A stretch of 64,000 nucleotides of DNA, from contig NZ_QKZL01000003.1 of assembly GCF_003253995.1 (NCBI RefSeq), positions 248,001-312,000 on the forward strand, written 5' to 3'. The translations under genes and the position numbers were made by a program. Below, piece after piece: positions 43,128 through 50,810 of this stretch; the first letter of the stretch is position 1; each line of letters begins with the position of its first letter. The notes under the pieces were generated by a model that worked only from the letters and a program-made list of their open reading frames with translations, was not told the origin of the DNA and ran no database searches. This DNA is from Palleronia aestuarii. GTDB lineage: Bacteria; Pseudomonadota; Alphaproteobacteria; Rhodobacterales; Rhodobacteraceae.

Positions 43128-44717
<1,590 letters not shown>

Positions 44718-44861: not shown

Positions 44862-46409
44862 ATGGAAGCGAGCGAAACGCGCAGGCGGGGTCGGAGCGGT
44901 GGCGGCGGGGCGGCCCGGAGGGCGGAGCGCACGGCCGTCCGGATCGAGGCGGCACGCTATATCGAACGCAACATCCCGAACTTCGAGGTCCTGACCGCCG
45001 AAGCGATCGAGATCATCGAGACCAATGCCGACACCATCCTCGCAGAGATCGGTGTCGTCTTCTCCGAGAACCCCGCGGCGCTCGATCTCTGGCGGGAGGC
45101 AGGTGCCGAGATCGAGGGCGAACGGGTTCGCCTGCCGCGCGGCCTCGCCCGCAAGCTCTGCGCGACGGCACCGTCGCAATACACGCAACATGCCCGCAAC
45201 CCCGAACGTTCCGTCGTCGTCGGCGGACGCAACATGGTCTGCGCGCCGGTCTACGGCCCGCCATTCGTGCACGATGCGATGGGCGGCCGCCGCTATGCCA
45301 CGATCGAGGATTTCCGGAATTTCGTGAAGCTCGGCTACATGTCGAAATGGCTCCACCATTCGGGTGGAACGGTCTGCGAGCCCACCGACATCGCGGTCAA
45401 CAAGCGGCATTTCGACATGCTGCTCGCGCATATGACGCTGTCGGACAAGCCGTTCATGGGATCGGTCACGGAGCCGTCGCGGGCCGCCGATTCCGTGGAA
45501 ATGTGCGAAATTCTCTTCGGCAAGGAATTCGTCGCCGAGAACACGGTGATGACCTCGCTCGTCAACATCAACTCCCCCCTGACGTTCGACGTGACCATGA
45601 TGGGTGCGCTCGAAACCTATGCCCGTGCGAACCAGGCCTGCATCCTGTCGCCCTTCATCGTGGGTGGCGCGATGGCGCCCGTCACCGTGGCGGGTACGCT
45701 CACGCAGGTTCTGGCCGAGGTGATGGCGGGCGTCGCTTATTCGCAGCTCGTCCGGCCCGGTGCGCCGATCGTCGCGGGGGCCTTCGTCACGTCCATCGAC
45801 ATGAACTCGGGCGCGCCGACTTTCGGAACGCCCGAGGCCGCGCTCATCACCTATGGCGCGGGCCAGCTGATGCGGCGCCTGGGTCTGCCCTATCGTAGCG
45901 CCGGGAGCTTCTGCGGCTCGAAACTGCCTGATGCGCAGGCGGCCTACGAGACGGCGAACAGTCTCAACATGGGGCTGCTCGCGGGGGTGAACTTCATGCT
46001 GCATTCCTGCGGCTGGCTCGAAGGCGGGCTCGTCTCGAGCTACGAGAAATTCGTGTTAGATGCCGATCAGCTGGGCGTGCTGCACAATCTCGCTCGTGGA
46101 ATCGATCTGAGCGAGAACGGACAGGCAATGGATGCGCTGGCCGAGGTCGGTCCGGGAGGACATTTCCTCGGCTGCGCGCATACCCATGCGAATTTCAAGG
46201 ACGCGTTCTGGCGGACCGAGATCTTCGACTACAAGCCCTATGAGACATGGTCCGACGAAGGTTCTCGCGACAGCCAGACGCTGGCCTCCGCGCGCGTAGC
46301 CAAACTTCTTGCGGAGTATCAGGCCCCACCGATCGATGCGGCGACCAGCGAGGCACTTGCCGACTACGTCGCGCGCCGCAAGGCCTCGATGCCGGATGCG
46401 TTCGGCTGA
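44862..46409 (+). CDS. MttB-family methyltransferase, non-pyrrolysine type
   Basis: A 515-residue TIM-barrel protein of the trimethylamine methyltransferase (MttB, COG5598) superfamily. A basic N-terminal tail precedes the barrel, with blocks [40 protein letters not shown] and [20 protein letters not shown]. There is no in-frame amber codon, so it is a non-pyrrolysine member. Characterised relatives demethylate glycine betaine, proline betaine or carnitine with a corrinoid partner; none is in the window. In marine Rhodobacterales such genes are numerous and their substrates mostly unknown. Its last 46 bp overlap the convergent DUF6477 gene. Confidence 0.88.
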
Positions 46410-46735
46410 GGCATCCGATCCACCGGCGGCGTCGTCCTCGTCGCCGGCGCGTCGGCGACAAGCGTCAGCCGCCGGCTTTCGGCCATGAGTGCCACCAGGA
46501 TCGCGATATGGCGCTGCGCGGAATAGGTCGCCTTCCTGTCGCGGCGTTCGACGTCGATCTCCATCTCCATGTTCGCCAGGGTCCGTATCAGATCGGCCGG
46601 GCCGGGAACCGATTCGCCTACGAAGAGACGCGGAATCTCGAGATCCCTGTTGTAGGCCGACAGGCCGAATCGCGCTGCGCTGATCAGCAGGCGGGGTCGC
46701 TTGATCGTGCGAAGATGACTGTGGATATCTTGCAT
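46364..46735 (-). CDS. DUF6477 family protein
   Basis: A 123-residue protein beginning MQDIHSHLRTIKRPRLLISA, a sequence I associate with DUF6477, found in Rhodobacterales. The centre is helical and charged (RTLANMEMEIDVERRDRKA, YSAQRHIAILVALMAESRR), followed by a proline-rich tail. The start follows GAGGAGT. It is divergent from the DUF6456/GafA-like gene across 241 bp. In R. capsulatus a small gene beside gafA (rcc01866) is implicated in gene-transfer-agent maturation; that this is its counterpart is a tentative match from context. Confidence 0.65.
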   Translation of the reverse strand: MQDIHSHLRTIKRPRLLISAARFGLSAYNRDLEIPRLFVGESVPGPADLIRTLANMEMEIDVERRDRKATYSAQRHIAILVALMAESRRLTLVADAPATRTTPPVDRMPQPNASGIEALRRAT

Positions 46736-46892
46736 GTGTTCCACTCCTCGGAATGACGCCTGATCCGACGGTGGCACAACTTATAGGGGTGTTGCTTTAG
46801 GCCGGTTTGGGGGGAACTATTCGGTGGATCTGCATTAATTTTTACGCATCATTCCCTTAAGGGCCGCCGAGCTGCTGACGGTCCTTACGCAT

Positions 46893-46909
46893 AACAACCA
46901 AGAGTTGTT
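46893..46909. promoter_or_regulatory. Inverted repeat in the DUF6477-gafA divergent promoter
   Basis: AACAAC-CAAGA-GTTGTT is a 6-bp perfect inverted repeat with 5-bp spacer, 67 bp before the gafA-like start. It is placed as an operator for either divergent promoter. I see no canonical CtrA site (TTAA-N7-TTAA) here: two TTAA motifs lie at 46835 and 46857 with 18 bp between. Confidence 0.35.
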
Positions 46910-46976
46910 TACCTGTGTCTGACCGGAGCGAACAGGACGCCCTGTGTCGGCTGTGTTGAGAAGGGGATGAACACGT

Positions 46977-48038
46977 ATGTCAACGAGTATGGTGGAGCCG
47001 CTGCCCGGCTGGGTGCCAGATCACGTCCGGGTCTATCTCGCCCATGTCGTCGGTGGAGAGCCGATTCGTGCATTGGCGCGACAGAGCGGATGTCATGCCT
47101 CGACCGTGCTGCGGCAAGTACGCCGCTGCGAGCAACGTCGTGACGACCCTCTCATCGATCTCGCGCTGAAGCGCCTCGGACAGCAGCGGGCCGGATCGCG
47201 TCCGTCCGCCCAGAAGAGTGGAGCCGACACGATGACGACGAATACCGAGACGACGTCGATGCCGAGCGAGGAGGTGATCGCGCTCGAGGCACGCCGAATC
47301 CTGCGCCGTCTTTCCGAACCGGGCGCCTGCCTCGCCGTCGCCGAGGGCATGGAGAAGGCCGTCGTCGTGCGAGAGACGAAGGACGGGCAGACGATCCGCA
47401 CCGGCGTCTGCGATTCGAAGGTCGCCGAGGCGCTTGCGCTCAAGGAGTGGATCGCCGCGAGCGGGACCGGACGGATCGCACGGTACCGCATCAAACCCGC
47501 CGGTCGGTCGGCGCTGAAGCACCTCCTGGCCGAGGAGGGCGAGACCGGCGAAGCCGATGCCGGGACGCACGCGAAGGCGCCGCCCACAGCGCGGTACAAC
47601 CATTTCGAAAGCCCTCTCCTGACCCTCGCGCGGCGCCGCGACAAGGACGGTGAACTCTTCCTCAGCGATGCGCTCGTCCGCGCAGGCGAGCGGATGCGGG
47701 AGGATTTCGAACTCGCGCGGATGTCCGCAGGGGGCGAACGGGACTGGCACGAATTTCTGCTCTCGGCCGGTTCAAAAGATACCGCGCCCGACATAGAGCC
47801 GCTGGGCACGTCGCCCGAAGCTGCCGGCCGCCGCCTCGCCGATGCATTGACCGATCTGGGACCGGGTCTCGGAGATGTCGTGCTACGGGTCTGCTGCCAT
47901 CTCGAGGGAATGGAGACCGTCGAACGAAGGATGGGCTGGGCGGCGCGATCCGGCAAGATCGTGCTTCGGATCGGCTTGCAGCGATTGCAGCGCCATTACC
48001 TCGAGCGCTACGGCAATCTCGCCCCGATGATCGGCTGA
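46977..48038 (+). CDS. gafA: DUF6456 regulator, likely gene-transfer-agent activator GafA
   Basis: A 353-residue protein with an N-terminal helix-turn-helix region (about residues 13-60, GEPIRALARQSGCHASTVLRQ) and a C-terminal DUF6456 domain (about 210-350). The DUF6456 end LTDLGPGLGDVVLRVCCHLEG, with METVERRMGWAARSGKIVLR after it, is strongly conserved in Rhodobacterales. GafA of R. capsulatus has this two-part layout, binds the GTA promoter and is controlled by quorum sensing and CtrA; Caulobacter splits it into GafY and GafZ. The match is from memory of family layout, and length agrees. An acidic/Thr-rich linker and a middle block lie between domains. The start follows AAGGGG. Confidence 0.65.
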   Translation: MSTSMVEPLPGWVPDHVRVYLAHVVGGEPIRALARQSGCHASTVLRQVRRCEQRRDDPLIDLALKRLGQQRAGSRPSAQKSGADTMTTNTETTSMPSEEVIALEARRILRRLSEPGACLAVAEGMEKAVVVRETKDGQTIRTGVCDSKVAEALALKEWIAASGTGRIARYRIKPAGRSALKHLLAEEGETGEADAGTHAKAPPTARYNHFESPLLTLARRRDKDGELFLSDALVRAGERMREDFELARMSAGGERDWHEFLLSAGSKDTAPDIEPLGTSPEAAGRRLADALTDLGPGLGDVVLRVCCHLEGMETVERRMGWAARSGKIVLRIGLQRLQRHYLERYGNLAPMIG

Positions 48039-48110: not shown

Positions 48111-49613
48111 TCACTCCGCCGCTTCGGTTTCCGTATCGTCCGTGATCGGGACCGCGTTCACGTCGCTGTCCATCGTCTCGTTCGCCTTGCGCACACCGGC
48201 GGCGTAGTCCGGATGCACCCGCTCGAGCACGGCATACCAGCGCTCCTTCACCTCCTGCGAGCACGGACCCATCGCGCCCGCGTAGTTCGCAAAGAGACGC
48301 TGCTTCTGCTCGTCGGAGAACATCTCGAAAAGCTTGCGGGGCTGCACGAAATCCGCGTCCTCGGACGCCTGGACGTAGCGGTCGGCATCGCCATCGATGC
48401 GAAGCGGCGGCTCCTTCGCGCTCTCGTCGGCGACCGGGCCGTCATACTGGTTCGGCTCGTAATAGGCGTTCGGGTTGCCGAAATCGTTGGAGAAGAACCG
48501 CATCGAACCATCCTTGTGGTAATGGTTCACGGCCGCGGCGCGAGGCGCGTTGGCGGGCAGCATCTCGTAATGCGTGCCAAGCCGGTAACGGTGCGCGTCG
48601 GCATAGGAGAAGACGCGGGCCTGCAGCATCTTGTCGGGGCTGTAGCCGATACCCGGCACCACGTTCGACGGCGAGAACGCCGCGTTCTCCACGATCTGGA
48701 AGTAGTTTTCCGGATTACGGTTCATCTCCAGCTCGCCCACCTCGATCAGCGGGAAGTCACCGTGCGGCCAGACCTTGGTGAGATCGAACGGGTTGAAATC
48801 CTGCTTGCCCGCATCCTCCTCGTTCATCACCTGGATGTAGAGCGTCCATTTCGGGAAATCGCCCGCCTCGATGGCGTTGTAGAGATCTTCCTGATAGCTC
48901 TCGCGCGTCGAGCCGATGATCTTCTCGGCCTCTGCATTGGTGTAGTGCGCGTGGCCCTGCTGGGTCTTGAAGTGGAACTTCACCCAGTAGCGCTCGCCCT
49001 TTTCGTTCCAGAGGCTGAACGTGTGCGACCCATACCCGTTCATGTGCATCGGGTTCGTCGGGATGCCGCGATCCGACATCAGGATCGTCACCTGGTGCAC
49101 GCTTTCGGGCTGCGCGGCCCAGAAATCGAACATCGCTTCGGGTGAGCGGAGATTGGTCTTCGGGTGACGCTTCTGCGTGCGGATGAAGTCCGGGAACTTG
49201 TAGGCGTCGCGCACGAAGAAGATGGGCGTGTTGTTGCCCACCATGTCCCAATTGCCGTCCTCGGTGTAGAACTTGAGGCTGAATCCGCGCACGTCGCGTT
49301 CGACATCGGCCGCGCCGCTTTCGCCCGCGACGGTGGACCAGCGCGACAGCACTTCGGTCTTCGTACCCGGCCTGAAGACCTTGGCGCAGGTGTATTGCGT
49401 GATGTCGTGGGTCACCTTGAACGTGCCGAGCGCCCCCCAGCCCTTGGCGTGGACGACGCGCTCGGGAATGCGCTCGCGGTTCTGATGGGCGAGCTTCTCG
49501 ATCAGCTGATAATCCTGGAGGAGGATCGGGCCGCGGGGACCGGCGGTCTGGCTGAACTGGTTCGACGGGACGGGGGCCCCGGCGGTCGTCGTGAGGCGTG
49601 GTTTGTCGGCCAT
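48111..49613 (-). CDS. katA: Monofunctional heme catalase (clade 3 type)
   Basis: A 500-residue catalase that dismutates H2O2. The distal histidine is in [13 protein letters not shown], the asparagine in [14 protein letters not shown], and the proximal tyrosine motif is [19 protein letters not shown]. The NADPH-binding-size small subunit without a C-terminal flavodoxin domain puts it in clade 3. The start MADKPRL follows AGGAG. An intrinsic terminator ends the gene. A palindrome related to the Iron-Rhodo-box lies 28 bp upstream of the ATG. The divergent neighbour is lipA. Confidence 0.95.
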
Positions 49614-49640
49614 GTCTGGCTCCTGTTCTTTTTTTGTAGT

Positions 49641-49655
49641 TTGGAATCGTTCTAA
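49641..49655. promoter_or_regulatory. Diverged Iron-Rhodo-box-like palindrome before katA
   Basis: TTGGAA-TCG-TTCTAA matches the iscR operator (TTAGAA-CGT-TTCTAA) except for one arm base and the spacer, and keeps 15-bp symmetry with one mismatch. It lies 28 bp before the catalase ATG, within a typical promoter. Control by IscR or a related regulator is inferred. Confidence 0.5.
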
Positions 49656-49856
49656 CAAACTTCAGAGGGAATGCGAAGGGCCGTCATTGGGCCTGTCTCT
49701 GGGACAGATGGGGATGCCGCCGCCGCCTTGATAAGGATCGTCGGGCCGAAAGACGCTCCGCGACGACGAAACGCAGAGAATCGCGTGACGAAGAGACCAA
49801 CGCATCTTGGACTTCCGCGCGGCGATCACCTAATTGAGGGTGAGAAGGAGTCCGTC

Positions 49857-50810
49857 ATGCCCCGTGATCTGAAAATCCCCGCACAGCGACACCCCGAGAA
49901 GGCCTCCCGACCCGAGACGGTGCGCCTGAAGAAGCCCGACTGGATCCGTGTCAAGGCGCCGACTGGCGAGGGCTACAAGGCCACGCGGGAGATCATGCGG
50001 GAGCACAAGCTCGTCACGGTCTGCGAGGAGGCGGGTTGTCCGAACGTGGGCGAATGCTGGTCGCAAGGTCACGCCACGATGATGATCATGGGCGAGATCT
50101 GCACCCGCGGCTGCACGTTCTGCAATGTCGCGACGGGCCGCCCCGATGCGCTCGACGTCTTCGAGCCGGGTCGCGTCGCCGATGCGGTCAAGAAGCTCGG
50201 CCTCAACCACGTCGTCATCACCTCCGTCGATCGCGACGACGTCTCGGATGGTGGGGCGGAGCACATCGCGCAGACGATCCGCGCGACGCGACGCCAATCG
50301 CCCGGCACGACGATCGAGGTTTTGACGCCCGATTTCCTGCGCTGCGGGCCGGAGGCGCTGGAGACGGTCATCGCGGCGAAGCCGGACGTCTTCAACCACA
50401 ACCTCGAGACCGTTCCCGGCCTCTATCCCGAAGTGCGTCCGGGCGCGCGGTACTTCCATTCCCTGCGCCTCCTGCAGCGGGTGAAGGAACTCGATCCGAC
50501 GATGTTCACGAAGTCGGGCATCATGGTGGGTCTCGGAGAGACGCGGCAGGCGGTCCATCAGGTGATGGACGACATGCGCGCGGCGGATGTCGATTTCCTG
50601 ACGGTCGGACAATACCTCCAGCCGACATCGCGGCATCACGCGGTCGACCGCTTCGTCACGCCGGAGGAATTCGCGAGCTACGAGAAGGCCGCGTGGGGCA
50701 AGGGGTTCCTCATGGTCTCCGCCACGCCGCTTACCCGGTCGAGCTATCACGCGGGCGACGATTTCGCCCGGCTTCGCGCCGCCCGGCTCGCGCGTACCGC
50801 GGGCGGGTGA
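49857..50810 (+). CDS. lipA: Lipoyl synthase
   Basis: A 317-residue radical-SAM enzyme that inserts two sulfurs into octanoyl groups on lipoyl domains. The auxiliary 4Fe-4S cluster cysteines are in [12 protein letters not shown] (CX4CX5C) and the radical-SAM cluster is [10 protein letters not shown] (CX3CX2C). The conserved RSSYHAG arginine-serine end supplies the serine ligand of the auxiliary cluster. AGAAGGAG precedes the ATG. It depends on Fe-S assembly such as the suf operon of this window. A HAD gene follows 8 bp later. Confidence 0.97.

Follow-up and report, generated by a model that had tools for sequence, protein, structure and literature searches.

A gafA locus predicted to regulate an RcGTA-type gene transfer agent in Palleronia aestuarii, and a candidate leader terminator in its relatives

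RESULTS

The locus encodes a single-copy GafA and a divergent DUF6477 protein

The window, a 64,000-nucleotide stretch of the Palleronia aestuarii genome, contains a 353-residue open reading frame with a DUF6456 domain and, beside it on the opposite strand, a small DUF6477 gene. The features of the locus are as follows.

46977..48038, + strand: gafA, predicted to activate the genes of a gene transfer agent (GTA) directly, 353 residues; DUF6456 match, single copy
46977..47204, + strand: N-terminal DNA-binding part resembling DnaA domain IV, residues 1 to 76; fold match
47265..47561, + strand: central winged-helix-like part, residues 97 to 195, whose R. capsulatus equivalent binds RNA polymerase omega; fold match
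47592..47999, + strand: DUF6456, residues 206 to 341, with a sigma-region-4 fold match at residues 270 to 353; profile and fold match
46364..46735, - strand: DUF6477 gene, counterpart by place of rcc01866; PF20083, E = 3.1e-29
43128..44717, - strand: guaA, GMP synthase, synteny marker; NF000848, 763.7 bits (cut-off, 400)
49671..50810, + strand: lipA, lipoyl synthase, synteny marker; TIGR00510, 362.5 bits (cut-off, 310.25)
44862..46409: MTTB-family gene, between guaA and lipA
48111..49658, - strand: catalase gene, between gafA and lipA
46736..46976: promoter region shared by the divergent gafA and DUF6477 genes
46893..46909: palindrome AACAAC-N5-GTTGTT; many relatives have CAACC-N3-GGTTG next to their CtrA box
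46774..46795: second element, GCACAAC...GTGTTGC, close to where the DUF6477 gene starts
46875..46888: place of the CtrA box (TTAAC-N6-[GC]TAAC in most relatives), here CTGAC-N4-CTTAC; aligned by eye

In profile searches, DUF6456 scored 184.8 bits in the 353-residue protein (E = 9.7e-55; cut-off, 26.3), and both DUF6456 and DUF6477 were above their curated cut-offs. As this is the only DUF6456 match in the genome, gafA is present in single copy. An earlier sequence-only reading had described a two-part protein, with DNA binding at the N terminus and DUF6456 at the C terminus, next to a small divergent DUF6477 gene; the DnaA-like N terminus, the DUF6456 score, and the opposite-strand PF20083 match confirm both points. 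The C terminus also has the sigma-4-like fold. Among the gafA features tested, the only one not found is a CtrA box at the promoter, which is usual rather than defining. The 353-residue DUF6456 protein is GafA and is ordinary for its family. GafA is known as the master switch for gene transfer agents, virus-like particles by which some bacteria distribute their DNA. The DUF6477 reading frame extends to 46777 from a GTG codon, and alignments make Met15 the likelier start.

No break was seen in the gafA frame, and gafA was matched in all 13 other genomes of the genus searched, the match in one congener (G001) beginning only at residue 61. Apparent interruption or shortening of gafA was seen in G026 (two frames), G016 (an internal stop), and G001; no DUF6477 reading frame was found in the stretch fetched around G001 gafA. 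NCBIfam and PADLOC gave no match, and the single PHROG match of the 353-residue protein (phrog_31864, residues 14 to 173) is to a family without a function label.

The surroundings of gafA are conserved as well. PMC6363796 describes lipA and the GMP synthase gene as the usual flanks of gafA, and in PMC9638019 rcc01866 adjoins R. capsulatus gafA divergently and is linked to particle maturation and lysis. We compared the window with 80 named loci, the best 80 of 554 confirmed matches, a choice that favors close relatives. Both guaA and lipA are present in 57 of the 62 of these best loci that have full flanks, and all 80 have a DUF6477 reading frame on the opposite strand (77 pass a scripted test of divergent placing that permits an overlap of up to 200 nt). 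The called DUF6477 and gafA frames overlap in 6 of the best 80, by more than 200 nt in L069, L070, and L145. The DUF6456 relatives thus look GafA-like, in support of the assignment first made from sequence alone. Since a relative of the window catalase was seen in just 5 of the 62 full-flank loci from the best 80, the catalase gene is probably an insertion. CckA and RecA had been offered as a further hint of GTA control; both are encoded in the window, but at about 30 kb from gafA they add little.

An apparently unbroken RcGTA-type cluster lies on another contig

The window genome contains one match to GTA_TIM (PF13547), at 496.9 bits. The 19.5 kb around it (locus L003 on contig C4) contains g1 to g15 in order, with no broken frame seen: g1, terminase, portal, prohead protease, capsid, g6, head completion, tail completion, tail tube, g10, g11, g12, g13, g14, and g15. 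Of these, g1 was assigned by place and g11 by place together with tape-measure PHROGs, while the connector model for g6 is just under its cut-off. The genes mltG and fabF adjoin the cluster, and a GH108 gene, of the family to which the R. capsulatus endolysin belongs, is also present in the genome. The capsid and portal cluster expected elsewhere in the genome is therefore found, is of the RcGTA type, and is remote from gafA.

Across 129 genomes of the family, the window genome included, 115 have both gafA (E, 1e-15) and terL (E, 1e-40), 5 have gafA without terL, 2 have terL without gafA, and 7 have neither (Fisher p = 2.7e-7, kinship ignored). DUF6477 is found in 115 of the 129 and is lacking in all 9 genomes without gafA and in 5 with it. 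A general regulator unconnected with GTA would be compatible with the placing of gafA and the cluster on separate contigs and with the 5 of 120 gafA-bearing genomes that lack a terL match, some of which fragmentation may account for. Against this stand the co-occurrence with terL, the guaA/lipA synteny, and the genetics reported in PMC6363796, in which GTA production is increased by gafA in R. capsulatus and by its homologues in Ruegeria mobilis and Roseovarius nubinhibens; we regard a general regulator as extremely improbable. Domains, synteny, the GTA cluster, and co-occurrence all support the proposed role in GTA control, and this is almost certainly the locus from which GafA regulates an RcGTA-type gene transfer agent in a bacterium of the Palleronia type.

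The gafA promoter lacks a recognizable CtrA box

PMC6363796 describes a CtrA box, TTAAC-N6-GTAAC, at gafA as remarkably conserved when 14 further species are aligned, and PMC6473078 gives predicted CtrA sites at gafA and its neighbor in D. shibae. We scored 260 nt per named locus against TTAAC-N6-[GTC]TAAC (maximum score, 9.5). Among the best 80 of 554 loci, 68 reach a score of at least 8.5 (2.5% of shuffles) and 42 have a perfect box (0 of 1,600 shuffles). No CtrA box is recognizable at the window gafA promoter, where the best score is 7.5, reached by 18% of its own shuffles; the P. pontilimi promoter scores 6.5. When aligned by eye, close relatives have TTAAC-N6-CTAAC followed by CAACC-N3-GGTTG, whereas the window has CTGAC-N4-CTTAC followed by AACAAC-N5-GTTGTT. 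Judged by these alignments, the gafA promoter is diverged in the window lineage. Two conserved CAAC/GTTG elements lie in the gafA-DUF6477 intergenic region; in the best 80 of 554 loci, AGGTTG occurs in 55 (10.6 expected) and GTGTTGC in 49 (3.8 expected).

A perfect CtrA-type box lies upstream of the GTA promoter

In the window genome, the GTA promoter TTGACA-N17-TAGGTC has its -10 element about 104 nt before g1, within the stretch of 76 to 125 nt bound by GafA in R. capsulatus (PMC6363796). A perfect CtrA-type box, TTAAC-N6-TTAAC, begins 56 nt before this promoter and lies 183 nt before g1 (C4:251981-251995; L003:14482-14496). On its own such a match is weak evidence, as TTAA-N7-TTAA has 15 sites in the genome compared with 11 for the reversed control pattern. 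Across the family, the 120 nt preceding the -35 element were searched at 71 of 72 GTA promoters (one stretch was too short); perfect boxes occur at 9 (0.07% of shuffles) and boxes scoring at least 8.5 at 26 (0.9% of shuffles). In 15 of these 26 the box starts between -53 and -57 relative to the -35 element, and this fixed place argues for function.

According to PMC6363796, the RcGTA promoter was not bound by CtrA in vitro, and PMC4046655 reports slightly lower GTA expression in ctrA mutants. That the boxes are used by a different factor, such as the DnaA-like domain of GafA, or are not bound at all, would agree with the in vitro result and with the near-background count of TTAA-N7-TTAA sites, and is a real though rather doubtful possibility; the frequency of perfect boxes and their fixed distance from the -35 element speak against it. 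The sequence suggests that CtrA may act here at the GTA promoter, either in place of gafA or in addition to it.

Across 69 genomes, CtrA boxes are present at both promoters in 24, at gafA only in 34, at the GTA promoter only in 2 (the window genome and G111), and at neither in 9. An anti-correlation between the two promoters was considered and rejected (Fisher p = 0.19; odds ratio, 3.2, in the opposite direction), so that a moved CtrA input is a statement on the window species and not a trend.

The motif CGAAC was also considered as a GafA site shared by the two promoters. At gafA promoters, the spacer of the CtrA box contains it in 17 of 68 named loci (from the best 80 of 554) and in 10 of 69 family genomes; it also occurs in 24 of 72 GTA spacers, but in 0 of 26 GTA CtrA boxes. 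The motif is suggestive, not proof. The -35 and spacer consensus are partly circular, since TTGA[CT] was required in the promoter search and a C[GA]n[AG]C spacer added to the score.

Many relatives have a predicted intrinsic terminator in the GTA leader

Upstream stretches were taken from 90 of the 117 family genomes with terL, the 27 lowest-scoring being left out, and 89 were used (G098 was too short). A GTA promoter was found in 79 of the 89; 72 with a score of at least 6 were kept and 7 weaker ones dropped. With a terminator defined as a hairpin of dG -15 or lower followed by a T-run, 63 of the 72 promoters have one within 110 nt after the -10 element, compared with 42 of 720 shuffled leaders; at a laxer limit of -8 the counts are 71 of 79 and 57 of 237. 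In the 63 genomes the T-run starts 49 to 67 nt after the -10 element (median, 56), and the leader sequence ahead of the hairpin is conserved: CAnGCTGGAAGAAGTGGGCAAG.

Evidence for covariation, from compensatory changes in the stem, is moderate. When the stem was assigned manually, 83.8% of its cells pair (76.9% in shuffles) and 31 carry changes on both sides (12.9 in shuffles), neither value being reached in 500 shuffles. Slid versions of the stem pair less, with a slide of -3 still having 27 cells changed on both sides. Counted by stem pairs instead of cells, 5 have changed on both sides compared with 3.4 in shuffles, which is unexceptional (51 of 500 shuffles). RNAalifold gave no consensus structure for the MAFFT-aligned leaders, and six loci searched against Rfam gave no leader match at E up to 1.

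A covariance model (R2) built from the 63 leaders matches 82 of the 129 family genomes. Of 21 matched genomes outside the model, 17 have the match 212 to 541 nt before their terL match; the remaining four comprise G018 (elsewhere, weak), G098 (on another contig), and G131 and G144 (without a terL match). Nine of 14 named genomes, selected among those of the best 80 loci, are matched, with the best match beside terL in all nine: Ruegeria conchae, R. profundi, Cereibacter ovatus, Roseobacter cerasinus, Sulfitobacter brevis, Tranquillimonas rosea, Roseobacter sp. GAI101, Silicimonas algicola, and Thalassovita taeanensis. A second, weaker match lies elsewhere in 9 of the 82 family genomes and 5 of the 9 named ones. 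At E = 0.01, Roseovarius gaetbuli and four named Palleronia have no match; the P. pontilimi locus scored 17 bits (E = 0.0085) in a smaller search. The window genome has none: its own GTA locus (L003/L034) is unmatched even when E is relaxed to 10, and no terminator lies within 130 nt of g1. Congeners G004, G007, and G011 have a differently built terminator near g1. No match passed stricter filters in 142 genomes drawn from the class, an empty result of little weight.

The hairpin could simply terminate the gene upstream, which in the window genome is mltG, ending shortly before g1. Such terminators do occur here: G010, G003, and G012 have a hairpin and T-run 130 to 400 nt upstream of g1, and a terminator stands just upstream of the -35 element in 11 of 71 family genomes (further upstream in 2 of 71). 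We nevertheless find this explanation unlikely for the leader hairpin, whose T-run lies downstream of the GTA -10 element, where it would cut GTA transcripts too, and which is preceded by a conserved transcribed stretch. We found no report of a GTA leader terminator in the literature searched, a search that reached few subscription papers; the element is apparently unreported.

Phage records searched contain only partial relatives of GafA

A phage origin of gafA was considered and rejected, as 50,697 phage records gave only partial matches: the DUF6456 part in MW462191 and the N-terminal part in two RDJL Phi 2 records. The DUF6456-like stretch of MW462191, a 103-kb freshwater phage, lies at 76124-76528 and is 37.5% identical over residues 206 to 341. 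DUF6477 had no match in these records. IMG/VR contigs gave two distant matches.

DISCUSSION

In domains and gene order, the window genome resembles R. capsulatus, with its GafA (rcc01865), rcc01866, and RcGTA: a three-module protein, a divergent small gene, guaA and lipA as neighbors, and a remote g1-g15 cluster. The differences are the length of GafA (382 residues by the construct names in PMC9638019, compared with 353 here), the absence of a recognizable CtrA box at the window gafA, and the CtrA-type box at the GTA promoter here, whereas PMC6363796 reports that CtrA of R. capsulatus failed to bind the GTA promoter of that species. By analogy, the most likely mode of action of GafA here is that of its R. 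capsulatus counterpart. It would be expressed in response to host signals, bind its own promoter and that of the head-tail cluster on the other contig, and recruit RNA polymerase, its winged-helix-like middle contacting omega. The divergent DUF6477 protein would act later, in particle maturation and release. Activation, polymerase contact, and this later role are all taken from work in R. capsulatus and Caulobacter.

The GTA system could instead be in the course of being silenced, with an orthologous GafA that is rarely or never expressed. This would account for a gafA promoter whose CtrA-like score is within chance and for the leader element not being found in the window genome or the four named Palleronia. 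Yet g1-g15 and gafA show no visible break, gafA is matched in all 13 congeners searched (truncated in one), and the GTA promoter is preceded by a perfect CtrA-type box; we consider silencing improbable.

In lambda pR'-Q-tR' and in antitermination by P. aeruginosa AlpA, a binding site in the promoter spacer is combined with an early terminator. The GTA leader of the relatives resembles pR'-tR' in this layout, which fits the suggestion that GafA could serve as an antiterminator. In Caulobacter crescentus, where DUF6456 was also found in our control genome, GafZ (the DUF6456 half) is an antiterminator that binds between the -10 and -35 elements of the GTA promoter (PMC11150451), and the same paper raises the possibility that R. 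capsulatus GafA has unrecognized antitermination activity. Caulobacter differs in having two genes, GafY and GafZ, where the window has one, and in the place of its terminator: terGTA follows the first gene, the hairpin of the relatives precedes g1, and a leader hairpin of this kind is absent from the window genome.

Joined together, these observations lead us to a tentative reading that we find plausible, if short of probable. In most of the family, GafA would be a Q-like processive antiterminator that loads at the spacer motif CGnACGGTC between the -35 and -10 elements and enables polymerase to pass the intrinsic terminator whose T-run lies 49 to 67 nt after the -10 element, before g1; the window lineage would have dropped the leader and moved the CtrA input from gafA to the GTA promoter. 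If so, this lineage offers a naturally occurring test of both GafA functions. The leader terminator seen in the family is a possible target for the suggested antitermination activity of GafA and makes that suggestion testable, and some species may have a GTA promoter under direct CtrA control, unlike the R. capsulatus picture. With the window locus, the range of species known to have gene transfer agents under GafA control grows by one.
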